The position numbers and the translations under genes were made by a program. From Wenzhouxiangellaceae bacterium (GTDB lineage: Bacteria; Pseudomonadota; Gammaproteobacteria; Xanthomonadales; Wenzhouxiangellaceae), in NCBI GenBank assembly GCA_007695005.1, contig REEQ01000080.1, forward strand, positions 1-64,000: a stretch of DNA of 64,000 bases, written 5' to 3'. Of this stretch, positions 44,420-49,852 are shown one piece after another (within the stretch, counting starts at the first letter, position 1; every line of letters begins with the position of its first letter). The notes under the pieces are model-generated. The model was given only the letters and a program-made list of their open reading frames with translations, was not told the origin of the DNA and ran no database searches.

Positions 44420-46333
44420 ATGGGCGAGCAGAACGTACGACAAACCAGCGACGAGCAGACCCGTCGCGCTTTCATGAAGGCGCTGCTCGACGAAGTTCGA
44501 GCCCTGGAGGACATGCACCAGCTTGGCCTGTTCGAGACCGGTGTGCGACGTATTGGCGCTGAACAGGAAATGTTCCTGGTCGACCGGGCCTCCCGACCCG
44601 CATTGACCGCGATGCAGATCCTGGACCGCACGGACGATGCGCGCTTCACCCATGAGCTCGGACTGTTCAATCTCGAGGCCAACCTCTCGCCCCTGGACAT
44701 GGGTGGTGATTGCTTGCGTCGACTGGAGGCCGAGGCAAGCGAAATCATGGACATCGCCCGGGCCCGGGCCGCTGAAGTCGGGACCCGGATCGCCCTGGTC
44801 GGCATTCTGCCAACCTTGACGCGGGATCATCTCAGCCTCGACGCCATCGTGCCGACGGCACGCTACTTTGCCCTCAATGAAGCCTTGCTGCGACTGCGCG
44901 GAAGCAACTTCCAGATTAACATCAAGGGCATAGATCAGCTCAACTTCAATCATGACAACCTGATGCTGGAAGCCTGCAACACCAGCTTCCAGATCCATTT
45001 TCAGGTCGGGCCCGAGGAGTTTGCCCACCTCTACAACATCGCCCAGGCAGTGACCGGGCCGCTGCTGGCCGCCTCGGTCAACTCACCCATTCTGCTCGGC
45101 AAGCGCCTGTGGCACGAAAGCCGGATTGCGGTATTCGAGCACTCCATCGATGCGCGTTCCGAAGCCCATGCCGCGCGCGGCCACAAACCACGGGTACATT
45201 TCGGCGACAATTGGATTGAAGAGTCGGTCATCGAGATATTCAAGGAGGATATTGCCCGCTTCCGGGTCATCCTGACCACCGAGTTCGAGGATGATCCGAT
45301 CGGCATGGTGGCGCGCGGCGAGATTCCCAAACTGAACGCGCTGCGCCTGCACAATGGCACCGTGTACCGCTGGAACCGGGCCTGCTACGGAATCTCCGAT
45401 AATGGCAAACCGCACCTGAGAATTGAAAATCGGGTCATTCCTTCCGGTCCCACAGTACTGGACGAAGTTGGCAACGCTGCGTTTTTCTTCGGCATGATGT
45501 CGAAACTGTCGCGATCCATCGACGACATTCGCCAGCATCTGAACTTTGCTGACGTCAAGTCGAATTTCCTGGCTGCAGCTCGCGAAGGCATCCGCGCCCA
45601 GCAGGTATGGTTCGATGAGCGCCAGATGACCGCCCAGGAGCTGGTGCTTGACATTCTGCTGCCGCTGGCACGCGAGGGACTGGCCGAAGCCGGTATTGAC
45701 AGTGACGATATCGACCGCTACCTCGGCGCCGTGCAAAAGCGCGTCGAACGGCGTCGCACCGGTGCCCGCTGGCAGCTCGAGTCACTGGAGAACATGCGCG
45801 GCCAGGGCAGCCCGCACGAGTGCATGCGGGCGATGACGAACAGCATGATCGAGCAGCAGGCTTCCGGCAAGGGCATTGCCGACTGGGAGCTGGCCGAGTT
45901 CTGCCCCAGCCAGGATTGGCGTGACAGCTATCGAACGGTCGGACAGTTCATGGCCACAGACCTGTTCACGGTCCGGCCAGACGACATCGTCGATTTCGCC
46001 GCCAGCCTGATGGAGTGGCGTTATGTCCGCCATGTGCCGGTCGAGGATGACTCCGGCCAGCTGCTCGGCCTGGTCTCGCATCGTCAATTGCTGCGTCTGG
46101 TCGCCCGCGGCGGCAAGATGGACCAGACCACCATGGTCCGCGATATCATGCGCCCCGATCCGATTGCCGTTGGCCCCGATACCACGACGGTCGAAGCCAT
46201 TCGTCTGATGCGTGAAAAACGATTGAGCTGTCTGCCTGTGGTAGAGCAGGGCAAGTTGGTGGGCCTGGTAACCGAGTACGATCTGATCGTGGTCGCCGGT
46301 CGCCTGCTGGAAACCTACCTGGCCGAGGACTGA
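44420..46333 (+). CDS. GCS2-family carboxylate-amine ligase fused to a CBS domain pair
   Basis: A 637-residue cytoplasmic protein. Residues about 25-440 resemble glutamate-cysteine ligase family 2: GAEQE with Glu48 and Glu50, NLEANLSP with Glu86, the FQINIKGIDQLNFNHDN and LEACNTSFQIHFQV core, ASVNSPILLGKR (about 218-229) and RIENRVIPSGP (about 334-344). This family makes amide bonds between a carboxylate (often glutamate) and an amine using ATP. Residues about 508-630 form two CBS domains (MATDLFTVRP and IMRPDPIAV begin them), which in other proteins bind AMP, ATP or SAM. Substrates are not predictable. A downstream lipoprotein gene begins seven bases later. No canonical glutathione-synthesis partner is nearby. 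Confidence 0.85.
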   Translation: MGEQNVRQTSDEQTRRAFMKALLDEVRALEDMHQLGLFETGVRRIGAEQEMFLVDRASRPALTAMQILDRTDDARFTHELGLFNLEANLSPLDMGGDCLRRLEAEASEIMDIARARAAEVGTRIALVGILPTLTRDHLSLDAIVPTARYFALNEALLRLRGSNFQINIKGIDQLNFNHDNLMLEACNTSFQIHFQVGPEEFAHLYNIAQAVTGPLLAASVNSPILLGKRLWHESRIAVFEHSIDARSEAHAARGHKPRVHFGDNWIEESVIEIFKEDIARFRVILTTEFEDDPIGMVARGEIPKLNALRLHNGTVYRWNRACYGISDNGKPHLRIENRVIPSGPTVLDEVGNAAFFFGMMSKLSRSIDDIRQHLNFADVKSNFLAAAREGIRAQQVWFDERQMTAQELVLDILLPLAREGLAEAGIDSDDIDRYLGAVQKRVERRRTGARWQLESLENMRGQGSPHECMRAMTNSMIEQQASGKGIADWELAEFCPSQDWRDSYRTVGQFMATDLFTVRPDDIVDFAASLMEWRYVRHVPVEDDSGQLLGLVSHRQLLRLVARGGKMDQTTMVRDIMRPDPIAVGPDTTTVEAIRLMREKRLSCLPVVEQGKLVGLVTEYDLIVVAGRLLETYLAED

Positions 46334-46340
46334 CAAACGC

Positions 46341-46802
46341 ATGCCCCTGGTCTTCCAGCGTCTTGTACCCGGGCTGGTCCTGCTGACCATGGCCTGCTGC
46401 CTGCTGGTCGCCTGTAGTGATCCGCTGTCCGATGAGGCTCAGATCCGGCAGCGCCTTGACAGCATGGTTGACGGGCTGGCCGAGCGCAATGCACGTGCGG
46501 TGATGGCGCCGCTGGCCGAGGATTTCAGCGCCGATACCTGGAACCTGGATCCGCGTGGCGCGCGCTTGCTGCTCGAGCGCGAAATGCGCGCCCACGAGCG
46601 TCTGCGCGCTCGAGTCCATGATTTCTCCGTCGAACTGCACGGCCAGGACCGAGCAACGGCCGAGTTCCGGATCATTCTGACCGGGGGCAGCGGCCTCATT
46701 CCCGAGCGTGGGCGCTGGTATCGGGTCAATACCGGCTGGCGCCGCGACGGTTCGGACTGGATGATGATTTCGGCCAGCTGGGAAGACGTGGTCGGACTCT
46801 GA
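46341..46802 (+). CDS. NTF2/SnoaL-like lipoprotein of unknown function
   Basis: A 153-residue predicted lipoprotein: signal peptide with lipobox LVAC (Cys25), followed by a small cone-shaped alpha+beta domain. The pattern of a first helix (IRQRLDSMVDGLAERNARAVMAPL), then strands ending in GRWYRVNTGWRRDGSDWMM, is like NTF2/SnoaL-type binding or scaffolding domains. No catalytic residues are identifiable. It lies seven bases after the GCS2-CBS gene and its stop overlaps the helicase start (TGATG), so all three are probably one operon. The role is unknown. Confidence 0.7.
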   Translation: MPLVFQRLVPGLVLLTMACCLLVACSDPLSDEAQIRQRLDSMVDGLAERNARAVMAPLAEDFSADTWNLDPRGARLLLEREMRAHERLRARVHDFSVELHGQDRATAEFRIILTGGSGLIPERGRWYRVNTGWRRDGSDWMMISASWEDVVGL

Positions 46803-49800
46803 TGCAAACCGCTGCAAGCCAGTGCAGCGATCCGCTTGCCTGCCTTGAGCCTTCGGTCCAGCGCTGGTTCCGCACTCGCCACGGCCGGCCGACCCGCGTC
46901 CAGGCACTGGCCTGGTCGGCGATTGGCGGCGGTGGCCATGTCCTGGTCAGTGGCCCCACCGGCAGCGGCAAGTCGCTGGCAGCCTGGCTGCCGCTGATCA
47001 GCCGACTGGCCCACGCTTCATCCTCGCGCGGCGTGCGCCTGCTGTATGTTTCCCCGCTCCGGGCGCTGTCCCGCGACATGGCAACCGGCCTGGCCGAATG
47101 TCTGGCAGGGCTGGCCGAAATCACGCCATTCGGGGCCGGACGTCTGTCCTTTGGGGTGCGCACCGGTGACACGCCGGCCGCAGACCGCGCCAGCCAGCGC
47201 CGTCACCCGCCCGATATCCTGCTGACCACGCCGGAATCGCTGTTTGTGCTCCTCGGCAGCCGCGGCGGTCGGCGGATGCTGGCCACTACCGAGGCAGTCA
47301 TCGTCGACGAGGCCCATGCCCTGGCAACTGACAAGCGCGGGGCCCACCTGACCTTGTCACTGGAACGCCTGGACCAGCTGTGCGCCGGTCGACTTCAGCG
47401 CGTCGGTCTGTCGGCAACCGCCCGGCCACGACGCCTGCTTGGCGGCTACCTGGCCGGCGCCGGGCGCTCCTGCCAGCTGGTCGGAGATCAACACGGGTCC
47501 AGACCGGAGCTGATTATCGAGCAGCCCGACCTTTCTCTGGGCAGCTACGCCCATTCCGCCCATTGGTCCTTTGTCTGCGCCCGGCTGGCCGAGCTGGCTG
47601 CCAAGCCGGGCACCATGCTGGTGTTCTGCAATACCCGGGCCCAAGTGGAAAGATTGGCGGCGATGCTGGAGCAAGTCATGCCCGAGGACCAGCTCGCAGT
47701 TCATCACGGCAGCGTCGGACGAGATCGCCGCGAGACCGTGGAGCAAAACCTGAAACAGGGGCGGACCCGGCTTGTGGTCTGCTCCTCATCGCTGGAGCTG
47801 GGAATCGATGTCGGCGCCCTGGAGCGGGTCTGCCAGATTGGTGCCCCACCCGGCATCAATGAAATCCGACAGCGTGCCGGTCGTGCCCGCCACCGCCCCG
47901 GACTACAAGCGCGTCTGCATGCCTTTCCACTGACGATGAACGATCTGCTCGACTGGGAGGCCCTGGACCAGGCTTTTACCCGGCATGATTTGGACGTGCT
48001 GGCGCCGTGCCGGGAGCCGATCGATGTCCTCAGCCAGCACCTGGTGGCGATGGTGGCGGCCGGGCAGGCGTGCAGCGATCAGCTCTACGCCACCGTGACC
48101 CGGGCCTGGCCCTGGCGACGATTGCGCAGCGAGCAATTCGAGCGGGTCATCGACATGCTTCATCACGGCTTCGTTCCGGGCCGGGAAACCGCTGCCGGAC
48201 CCTTGTTCCGGTTGGGTGGCAAGCGCCTGGGCGCCAGCCGGGACGCTGCCCGACGCGCCTTGCTCAACGCCGGCACCATTCCCGAGTGGTTCGAGTACGA
48301 AGTTCTGGCACCCGCCCTGGGACGCCGCCTGGGCAGGCTGGACGAGGAATTTGCCTTCGAGTCCTCACCCGGCCAGATCCTGCAGCTTGGCGGCGAGAGC
48401 TGGCGCATTCTCAGAGTTCTGCCGGGCAGGGTGGAGGTAGAGGCAGCTGCCGATGAGGTACCGAATCTGCCGTTCTGGTTCGGCGATGGGGCAGGCCGCA
48501 GCAACGGCCTGTCGCTGAGCCTGCGATTGTTGTGCGAGCGCGCCAACCAGGGACGTTTTCCAGCCAGGCCCGAGCTCGCGGCCTGGCTCCAGGAGAACCG
48601 CGCGCATCTGCAAAGGCTGCCGGATCGCAGGACTATCGTGATCGAGCGGTTCTTCGATCCGATCGGAGACCAGCACCTGGTCATTCACAGCCTGTTCGGC
48701 GCACGCATCAACCGCGCCTGGGGACTGGCCCTGCGAAAGCGTTTCTGCCGCGGCTTCAATTTCGAGCTGCAGGCGGCCGCGACCGACAATGGCATCCTGA
48801 TCTCGCTGGGTGCCGTGCACAGTTTTGCCCTCGATGAGGTCATCGCCTGGCTGAGCGCCGACGGTCTGCCGGACCTGCTGGTCCAGGCCCTGCTCGATAC
48901 GCCGGTGTTCCAGACCCGATTGCGCTGGTGCGCCAACAATGCGCTGGCGATCGAACGCCGCGACCTGCATGGCCGCGTGCCGGCCCAGGTCCAGCGCAGC
49001 CAGACTGAAAACCTGATCTCGCGGATCTTCCCCGATCAGCTCGCCTGCCTGGAGAACCTGGCCGGACCACGACAGATACCCGATCATCCACTGGTTGAAC
49101 AAGCGCTGGCTGACTGCCTGCAGGGACATCTGGACCTGGCCGGGCTGGTGCGCCTGTATCAGGCGCTGGAGTCAGCTCGCATGCAGGTTCACATCATCGA
49201 TGGCCAGCAACCCTCAGCAATGGCCATGGCCCTGGTGCACGCGCCGCGCAGCAGTTTTCTGGACCCGGCCGCCGCCGAAGAACGGCGCACGCGCAGCTTC
49301 GAGCAATCGCCGGACCGGCCACCGCATGCCAGGCGCGAGTCTCGTGATCGGCAAGGGTCGGTGCCCCCGGCTGCCAGCCCCGGCTGGCAGAAGCACGGCG
49401 ACTTTGAACAGACCTTGCTCGCTGCCGGCTACCTGTTGCCCGCCGAGGCGGAGCAGAAGAACCTGGGCGAGACCTTTCTGCGCTTGACCAGACGTGGCCT
49501 GGCCATGAGCCTGTGGATCGACCGGCAGCGCTGCTTGTGGATGCACCAGGAACGCCTTGGTGAAGGCCTCGCCCTGTGGCCGAAGGCCAGGATTCAGCCG
49601 CACCTGTCAGCTGCCCTCAGGCCGGAACCCATTGCCGACCCGGACGAGGCCCTGTGTCGCCTGCTCATCGGCCGCTGCCGCCTGCTCGGCAGCCTGTCGG
49701 GCGAGCGATTGGCCATGGAAACCGGGCTGTCGACGGCCATGATAGAAAGCGGGCTGCTGCGTCTGCAGCTGGAGGGTCTGCTATTGAGCGAGCTGCAGAA

Positions 49801-49852
49801 AGGCGAGTTGGTCTGGCGAGAAAGAAAACCACAAGCCTTCAACCAGACCTAA
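46802..49852 (+). CDS. Lhr-type DEXH-box helicase, shortened form
   Basis: Superfamily 2 helicase of the Lhr group, linked to DNA repair in other bacteria. In the 1016-residue protein the Walker A motif SGPTGSGKS is at 50-58. The DEAH box is at 169-172 (VIVDEAHAL) and LSATA at 203-207. The second RecA domain ends in QRAGRARHRPGL near 355. A winged-helix and accessory core follow, then a Pro/Arg-rich linker near 825-860 and a C-terminal helical region. E. coli Lhr is about 1,540 residues, so most of the C-terminal extension is missing. The stop is followed by a gap without remnant coding. It starts at the last base of the lipoprotein gene. Confidence 0.88.
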   Translation: MQTAASQCSDPLACLEPSVQRWFRTRHGRPTRVQALAWSAIGGGGHVLVSGPTGSGKSLAAWLPLISRLAHASSSRGVRLLYVSPLRALSRDMATGLAECLAGLAEITPFGAGRLSFGVRTGDTPAADRASQRRHPPDILLTTPESLFVLLGSRGGRRMLATTEAVIVDEAHALATDKRGAHLTLSLERLDQLCAGRLQRVGLSATARPRRLLGGYLAGAGRSCQLVGDQHGSRPELIIEQPDLSLGSYAHSAHWSFVCARLAELAAKPGTMLVFCNTRAQVERLAAMLEQVMPEDQLAVHHGSVGRDRRETVEQNLKQGRTRLVVCSSSLELGIDVGALERVCQIGAPPGINEIRQRAGRARHRPGLQARLHAFPLTMNDLLDWEALDQAFTRHDLDVLAPCREPIDVLSQHLVAMVAAGQACSDQLYATVTRAWPWRRLRSEQFERVIDMLHHGFVPGRETAAGPLFRLGGKRLGASRDAARRALLNAGTIPEWFEYEVLAPALGRRLGRLDEEFAFESSPGQILQLGGESWRILRVLPGRVEVEAAADEVPNLPFWFGDGAGRSNGLSLSLRLLCERANQGRFPARPELAAWLQENRAHLQRLPDRRTIVIERFFDPIGDQHLVIHSLFGARINRAWGLALRKRFCRGFNFELQAAATDNGILISLGAVHSFALDEVIAWLSADGLPDLLVQALLDTPVFQTRLRWCANNALAIERRDLHGRVPAQVQRSQTENLISRIFPDQLACLENLAGPRQIPDHPLVEQALADCLQGHLDLAGLVRLYQALESARMQVHIIDGQQPSAMAMALVHAPRSSFLDPAAAEERRTRSFEQSPDRPPHARRESRDRQGSVPPAASPGWQKHGDFEQTLLAAGYLLPAEAEQKNLGETFLRLTRRGLAMSLWIDRQRCLWMHQERLGEGLALWPKARIQPHLSAALRPEPIADPDEALCRLLIGRCRLLGSLSGERLAMETGLSTAMIESGLLRLQLEGLLLSELQKGELVWRERKPQAFNQT

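Follow-up and report, generated by a model that had tools for sequence, protein, structure and literature searches.

A GCS2-type carboxylate-amine ligase fused to a CBS pair, and the AstE-like amidohydrolase with which it travels, in a Wenzhouxiangellaceae bacterium and its relatives

Carboxylate-amine ligases of the glutamine synthetase (GS) fold share a GhExE motif, acidic residues on strands 2 and 3, an [HD]x[NH] motif and an Ex[RK] motif (PMC2588565). The strand-4 motif of PafA, a superfamily member, is given as [HQ]x[NH], and PafA also departs from the Ex[RK]x2D form of the strand-6 motif (PMC2588565). The CBS pair of AcuB binds adenosine mono-, di- and triphosphate (AMP, ADP, ATP) and diadenosine tetraphosphate (Ap4A); Asp122 (type I) and Asp52 (type II) contact the ribose, and Arg33, His34 and Arg51 the phosphates (PMC13121692). 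Both kinds of domain are joined in a protein of 637 residues from a Wenzhouxiangellaceae bacterium, encoded within a stretch of 64,000 nucleotides (the window; contig REEQ01000080.1 of assembly GCA_007695005.1). Its gene is one intact open reading frame (ORF) with an ATG start, at positions 44420-46333 of the plus strand, and specifies a GCS2-type carboxylate-amine ligase with a C-terminal CBS pair.

What is new here is that this ligase travels with an AstE/aspartoacylase-like zinc amidohydrolase of the M14 type; no publication on the CBS fusion or on the pairing of ligase and hydrolase was found in the open-licence literature. The preferred reading, to which a probability of roughly 0.48 is given, is that the ligase and the hydrolase make and break the same amide and that the CBS pair switches the ligase by energy charge. 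An ATP- and Mg-dependent ligase of the GS fold would join an acid to an amine; the fused CBS pair would bind adenine nucleotides and switch the ligase with the cell's energy charge; the M14-type hydrolase would hydrolyse the ligase's own amide; and the two enzymes together would set the level of a compound of the gamma-glutamyl-amino-acid type. The fold, the intact catalytic residues, the CBS module and the gene partnership are well supported, and we infer the glutamate donor, the amino-acid acceptor, the identity of the bond, the adenine-nucleotide ligand and the direction of control. A preliminary description of the window had already proposed the ligase and the sensor, both of which are supported; the amidohydrolase, which is the main clue, lay outside its view.

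A scan of GTDB returned at least 587 related stretches, of which the best 80 were kept, all of them CBS-fused. Clustering of the ORFs around the scan loci brought out, next to the ligase, a member of the AstE/aspartoacylase family (PF24827). When profiles were run against all six-frame ORFs of at least 80 residues, 23 of the 80 loci, from seven named phyla, had this gene adjacent to the ligase in the same orientation. The figure comprises 22 loci within a limit of 2.5 kilobases (kb) and a Balneolaceae locus, L113, which falls 20 nucleotides beyond that limit because of a second copy of the ligase; the position of the hydrolase match inside long ORFs was checked for nine loci, including L054, L060 and L101. 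At L113 (8001-13026) two CBS-fused ligases stand in tandem and the AstE-like hydrolase follows at once; the tandem ligases are possibly heteromeric. No AstE-like gene was found in the stretch searched at another CBS-fused locus, L137.

The partnership extends to relatives of the ligase that have no CBS pair. In a sample of 398 genomes from the window's phylum, all 17 genomes with a CBS-less relative have, by coordinates, an adjacent AstE-like gene; at the loci fetched from this sample it lies directly downstream (12/12), and PF24827 was present in each of the five downstream genes tested. A possible start codon of the hydrolase occurs no more than 22 nucleotides from the ligase stop in 11 of these 12 loci, the exception being L127 with 128 nucleotides. 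Over all CBS-less loci fetched, the hydrolase immediately follows the ligase in 12 of 17, and in 12 of the 13 from Pseudomonadota. The hydrolases group into two clusters of six loci apiece, which match two forks in the tree of the ligase. No third gene family surrounds the CBS-less pair: among ORFs longer than 100 residues, over about 8 kb on each side where the sequence allowed, only ligase, hydrolase and antisense ORFs recur in at least 3 of 13 loci.

Co-occurrence was counted in the same 398 genomes, the identity of the sample in the ligase and hydrolase searches being inferred from matching genome identifiers and an equal count, with most of the genomes that gave no match unlisted. The ligase (E<=1e-30) was present in 19 genomes, the hydrolase (profile A4, E<=1e-60) in 19, and both in 18. 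Expressed differently, the hydrolase occurs in 18 of 19 ligase-positive genomes against 1 of 379 ligase-negative ones (Fisher p 5e-29 when kinship is ignored), or 7 of 379 at E<=1e-20. The hydrolase cut was chosen after the list had been seen, at most three (ligase) or four (hydrolase) first-look candidates were scored per genome, and 8 of the 17 rows of A4, the hydrolase search alignment, come from genomes of the sample; ten of the 11 ligase-positive genomes not represented in A4 have the hydrolase. The ligase stands alone in a single genome (G431, CBS-fused). The hydrolase stands alone at E<=1e-60 also in a single genome (G082), whose copy (G082:C65:4336-5331, locus L147) is 43% identical to that of the window's genome, and no ligase was detected in the 14 kb fetched around it. 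The window's own genome is the only one of the sample in which the two genes are present and unlinked. Among 25 chosen CBS-fused scan genomes the hydrolase was found in 18, and in ten of these, with positions compared by hand, it lies away from the ligase. In 61 near relatives (E<=1e-20) it occurs in 36 of 44 genomes with the ligase and in 2 of 17 without it; counted only outside the window's own family, it occurs in 3 of 8 and 1 of 16, respectively.

The partner hydrolase from locus L059 was modelled with a predicted local distance difference test score (pLDDT) of 88.5. Its structural matches are succinylglutamate desuccinylase at Z 23.9, DoeB/EutE at Z 22.8, human aspartoacylase at Z 20.3 and, at Z 20.6, CphZ, a hydrolase of cyanophycin dipeptides whose structure was determined with beta-Asp-Arg. 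The likeness to AstE, aspartoacylase, DoeB and CphZ thus covers PF24827, the fold (Z 20.3-23.9) and the invariant HGxE, DxNR, DxH and Glu, whereas two partner copies tested score far below the NCBIfam cut-offs for astE and aspartoacylase; to judge from sequence, the partner hydrolases form a separate subfamily. Residues H39, E42, D87, N89, R90, H138 and E194 are present in 17 of 17 rows and in the copy of the window's genome, and presumably supply the HxxE...H zinc site, the DxNR motif and the catalytic Glu. That copy, on contig 67 (L139:7929-9152, minus strand) and unlinked to the ligase, keeps the 12 invariant positions of the active-site region that were compared, so that the organism has both halves, the hydrolase being of another subtype. 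It lies beside what by eye looks like an ABC-transporter cluster, which is not informative. Enzymes of the AstE, aspartoacylase, DoeB and CphZ type cut amides whose nitrogen belongs to an amino acid. A GCS2-type ligase would make a bond of this kind by coupling the gamma-carboxylate of glutamate to an amino acid, hence the proposal that both enzymes act on one bond, and the amide made and broken is probably a gamma-glutamyl amino acid.

On the side of the ligase, the preliminary description of a glutamate-cysteine ligase (GCL)-like domain followed by two CBS domains holds for both sequence and predicted structure. Pfam detects two CBS domains (E 2.3e-29) and, over residues 46-241, GCS2 (PF04107) at 27.4 bits against a cut-off of 21, a weak match over the threshold. 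Among the best 25 of 30 NCBIfam matches no model comes near its cut-off, in agreement with the earlier statement that the combination has no defined product; the GCL-type models among them, PRK13517.1-1 and EgtA, reach 27.2 of 332 bits and 21.4 of 370.8 bits. The GCS2 sequence match being weak, it is the fold that settles the assignment as a ligase. An AlphaFold2 model of the 637-residue protein, built on a 74-sequence alignment (A2), has a mean pLDDT of 92.3 and a predicted template modelling score of 0.90, and models were compared by VIA-align (Z scores), together with a Foldseek list. The N-terminal part, about residues 25-483, matches YbdK (1tt4/1r8g) at Z 39 with 345-349 residues aligned, and the ligase part matches the plant GCL 2gwc at Z 32.9 and the yeast GCL 3ig5 at Z 28.9 (an alignment of 471 residues within residues 1-488). 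The GCLs, with the bifunctional GCL domains, span Z 21-33, and Dop and PafA are more distant matches at Z 18-22. The domain of the GCS2/YbdK fold, residues 41-483, corresponds to positions 44540-45868. About residues 501-635 match solved CBS pairs, and the fusion is accepted as real because structure matches exist for both parts.

YbdK (1r8g, 1tt4; TIGR02050) shares the fold over 345-349 residues, the GhExE signature and Pfam GCS2, but is only 15% identical to the window ligase, and its chain, at 354-358 residues, is too short to include a CBS pair. TIGR02050 is not among the best 25 of the 30 NCBIfam matches of the window protein, and three CBS-less relatives tested against it scored 22-25 bits, with a cut-off of 176. 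The eukaryotic and plant-type GCLs (3ig5, 2gwc; TIGR01436) resemble the ligase in fold (Z 28.9 and 32.9) and in aligned carboxylates, Gln and ExR (a weak alignment, with the yeast enzyme), but they are 16-19% identical to it and lack the CBS pair, and the window's genome has a TIGR01436 enzyme of its own. PafA and Dop share the superfamily fold, and in both systems a forming enzyme is accompanied by a cleaving one; identity is 10-12%, however, and the cleaving enzyme here is an unrelated M14-type metalloenzyme. The default annotation of GCS2-type proteins is 'glutamate-cysteine ligase family' (records H1 and H3).

The catalytic residues were followed in A2, which combines the window protein with 67 of the 80 scan loci, the second copy of L113 and five order-level relatives, the fragments L093 and L099 and 11 other scan loci having been left out. 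Although its rows are 42-82% identical, 13 putative catalytic positions are the same in all 74: Glu48, Glu50, Glu79, Glu86, Gln191, His193, Arg235, Arg258, Trp318, Arg320, Arg334, Glu336 and Arg338. With 17 CBS-less relatives added (alignment A3, 29 rows) the same residues are invariant, except for Arg258, which is nearly so. The GhExE signature is present on core strand 1 as G46-A-E48-Q-E50, with invariant G46 (Glu48-x-Glu50, positions 44561-44569; signature as in PMC2588565), and the acidic residues expected on strands 2 and 3 are Glu79 and Glu86 (44654-44677), predicted metal/ATP carboxylates that align weakly with the yeast GCL pair. Core strand 4 carries Gln191-x-His193 (44990-44998), in the PafA-like form of the motif, [HQ]x[NH] (PMC2588565), and core strand 6 carries the Ex[RK] motif as Glu336-x-Arg338, within Arg334-Ile-Glu336-Asn-Arg338 (45419-45433). 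Glu48, Glu50, Glu86 and this RIENR segment had been singled out in the preliminary description, and no loss of a glutamate was seen in the relatives. The Asp that the superfamily has three positions after the strand-6 [RK] (Ex[RK]x2D) is absent and a nearly invariant Pro341 stands in its place; despite this departure, the modelled fold and the remaining motifs place the protein in the GS-fold carboxylate-amine ligase superfamily. In the weak alignment with yeast GCL the carboxylates, the Gln and the ExR line up with the window ligase, and the yeast residues are those that we take to be metal ligands. An ATP-dependent amide-forming enzyme, as originally suggested, is well supported by the predicted fold and the invariant residues, and the ligase is conserved and probably active.

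The CBS pair, a Bateman module with both CBS modules in one fold by Pfam and structure match, covers residues 505-634 (positions 45932-46321). AcuB is its closest solved counterpart (Z 19.7, 129 residues, root-mean-square deviation 1.8, 33% identity), several others lying within Z 1. With AcuB of Bacillus, Geobacillus and Vibrio it shares the Arg-His phosphate pair and one ribose Asp, but the type II ribose Asp is replaced, and the other part of the protein is a ligase where AcuB has an ACT domain. Counterparts were assigned by motif, not by residue-level structure overlay. Arg537-His538 (46028-46033), which corresponds to Arg33-His34 of Bacillus subtilis AcuB (PMC13121692), is kept in 67 and 53 of the 74 rows, respectively, and Arg555, the counterpart of Arg51, in 67. 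In CBS2, Thr618-x-x-Asp621 (46271-46282; 62 and 61 of 74 rows) is found. The position of the type II Asp is occupied by Gln556 and is not conserved (most often A, 20/74, or S, 13/74; Asp in 6/74). We take Thr618-x-x-Asp621 to be the CBS ribose-binding motif, with the Asp acting as in AcuB. The type I Asp and the phosphate-binding Arg and His counterparts being kept, at least one canonical adenine-nucleotide site is predicted. The CBS pair of MJ0100, with S-adenosylmethionine (SAM) or methylthioadenosine, is tied with AcuB at Z 19.3. A switch by either energy or methylation state had been proposed at the outset: the nucleotide sensor is supported by sequence and fold, and of the two kinds of ligand adenine phosphates are favoured over SAM because the phosphate-binding Arg-His pair is kept. 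Three Polyangiaceae/Myxococcales proteins (L058, L061 and L064) exceed the window protein in length by about 18 residues and have a common Ser-Gly-x-Gly-x-Pro-Arg ending.

Whole-protein or near-whole matches were found in 44 of 61 near genomes (the window's own, 28 of 29 of the same genus, 7 of 7 of the family and 8 of 24 of the order; those in G021, G029 and G045 cover part of the query), so the fusion is not a chance event. Among the best 80 of the at least 587 scan stretches the fused ligase occurs in Gammaproteobacteria, including Wenzhouxiangella limi, Planctomycetota, Myxococcota, Acidobacteriota, Bacteroidota, Balneolota, Rhodothermota, Gemmatimonadota, Calditrichota and KSB1, a clade of about ten phyla. 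The CBS-less relatives, with 466-502 residues and 31-36% identity in A3, come from Actinobacteria (three plasmid-collection records) and from 17 of the 398 genomes sampled in the window's phylum; one from a haloarchaeon is less closely related, at 27%. In a 92-row tree made by a quick method, a single branch (Shimodaira-Hasegawa-like approximate likelihood ratio test 100) separates the 75 CBS-fused rows from the others, so that the CBS pair need have been gained, or lost, only once.

Several observations weigh against a shared bond under energy control. Co-occurrence is no proof that the ligase and the hydrolase act on one bond, and the Fisher p is too small as stated because the genomes are related. 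The hydrolase is not adjacent to the ligase in Wenzhouxiangella or in 57 of the 80 CBS-fused scan loci, some of which have short flanks, and it is lacking at E 1e-20 in 7 of the 25 CBS-fused genomes and at E<=1e-20 in 5 of the 8 ligase-bearing genomes from other families of the order. Five CBS-less loci (L031, which comes from the window's order, and L039-L042, of which three are actinobacterial and one is haloarchaeal) have no AstE-like gene in the stretch searched, with positive controls run. The hydrolase of the window's genome scores 339 bits with the profile of the partners of CBS-less ligases and 36 bits with that of CBS-fused partners, which makes it, by profile score, the subtype that accompanies CBS-less ligases, not CBS-fused ones. 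Finally, only one nucleotide site of the sensor is perhaps canonical, since CBS1 lacks the ribose-binding Asp.

Other explanations fit parts of the same evidence. The two enzymes might serve one pathway while acting on different bonds in series, the ligase glutamylating an amine to protect it and the hydrolase deprotecting a later product, or the hydrolase freeing an amino acid for the ligase. Protection by glutamylation is known from the gamma-glutamyl-putrescine route, the gene pairing fits such a series too, and the nearest folds of the partner, AstE, DoeB and CphZ, act in catabolic routes, which counts in its favour; with no third gene recurring around the CBS-less pair, it is nevertheless judged unlikely. 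A role as an additional gamma-glutamylcysteine synthetase, regulated by energy and serving a thiol such as glutathione, would agree with YbdK and GCL as the nearest folds and with the Pfam GCS2 cut-off having been passed. The window's genome, however, has two more GCS2 proteins, and the one on contig 80 is a TIGR01436 glutamate-cysteine ligase (654 bits, cut-off 463). Because of this enzyme and the failed NCBIfam cut-offs, the first step of glutathione synthesis was rejected as the main role; a tie to an M14 amidohydrolase would also be unexpected, and the thiol role as a whole is improbable. The other GCS2 protein, on contig 68 (L146:6453-9191), is YbdK-like (415 residues) and follows a RimK-like ATP-grasp protein with an RLAN N-terminal domain (487 residues); this pair is a second, separate GCS2 system in the genome.

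A system resembling PafA and Dop, in which the ligase would tag a protein or peptide and the hydrolase remove the tag, has the shared fold (Z 18-22) and a writer/eraser pairing alike in form to recommend it. Against it, no small conserved tag gene, Pup-like or other, was seen among the recurring neighbour ORFs of at least 80-100 residues, and AstE-type hydrolases act on small N-acyl amino acids; such a system is quite improbable. An inactive catalytic domain, present as a scaffold for the CBS sensor, is hardly credible: no biochemical data on the family were found in the open-licence literature, which would leave room for it, but none of the 13 putative catalytic positions varies in the 74 rows, which are 42-82% identical.

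The surroundings of the ligase in the window itself consist of an acyl-CoA-ligase-like ORF (by eye) that adjoins it on the minus strand, a small lipoprotein-looking SnoaL-like ORF directly after it (46341-46802, plus strand; PF12680, E 0.008, below cut-off) and an Lhr-type DEAD-box helicase with WH_Lhr and DEAD_assoc domains (46802-49852, plus strand). With such neighbours a conserved pathway neighbourhood in the window was rejected; this gene order is common mostly to Gammaproteobacterial relatives, and in near relatives a similar small ORF of the SnoaL-like type also follows the ligase. In four order-level relatives (L025, L026, L027 and L030) a CN_hydrolase, a nitrilase-type amidase identified by Pfam on the L030 copy, lies about 0.4-0.5 kb downstream of the ligase, and no AstE-like gene was found at E 1e-20 in the three family f5 genomes among them (L025-L027). 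Two myxococcal loci (L079:5788-9929 and L087:5958-9872) have a weak ATP-grasp protein, an alpha/beta-hydrolase and the CBS-fused ligase in a gene row; the ATP-grasp copy of L079 matches LysX/RimK models below their cut-offs, and neither genome gave an AstE-like match at E 1e-20. The cases are too few to claim that a CN_hydrolase or an alpha/beta-hydrolase replaces the AstE-like gene where it is missing.

The CBS-fused clade is large, keeps its catalytic residues, and has both a CBS regulator of its own and a strongly co-occurring hydrolase (18/19 against 1/379 genomes), all of which argues for an undescribed product different from that of GCL. Rather tentatively, the family may represent a widespread two-gene writer/eraser module, unnamed in the curated libraries searched, in which a GS-fold ligase makes and an M14-type hydrolase unmakes a gamma-glutamyl (isopeptide) metabolite, one clade of about ten phyla having added an energy-charge sensor. 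The partner gene narrows the search for the product of the ligase and makes it experimentally reachable: the product should be a substrate of the hydrolase. Through the CBS pair a link to energy charge can be tested as well. On the writer/eraser reading, the built-in energy-charge sensor would turn the metabolite into a store or signal that depends on energy.

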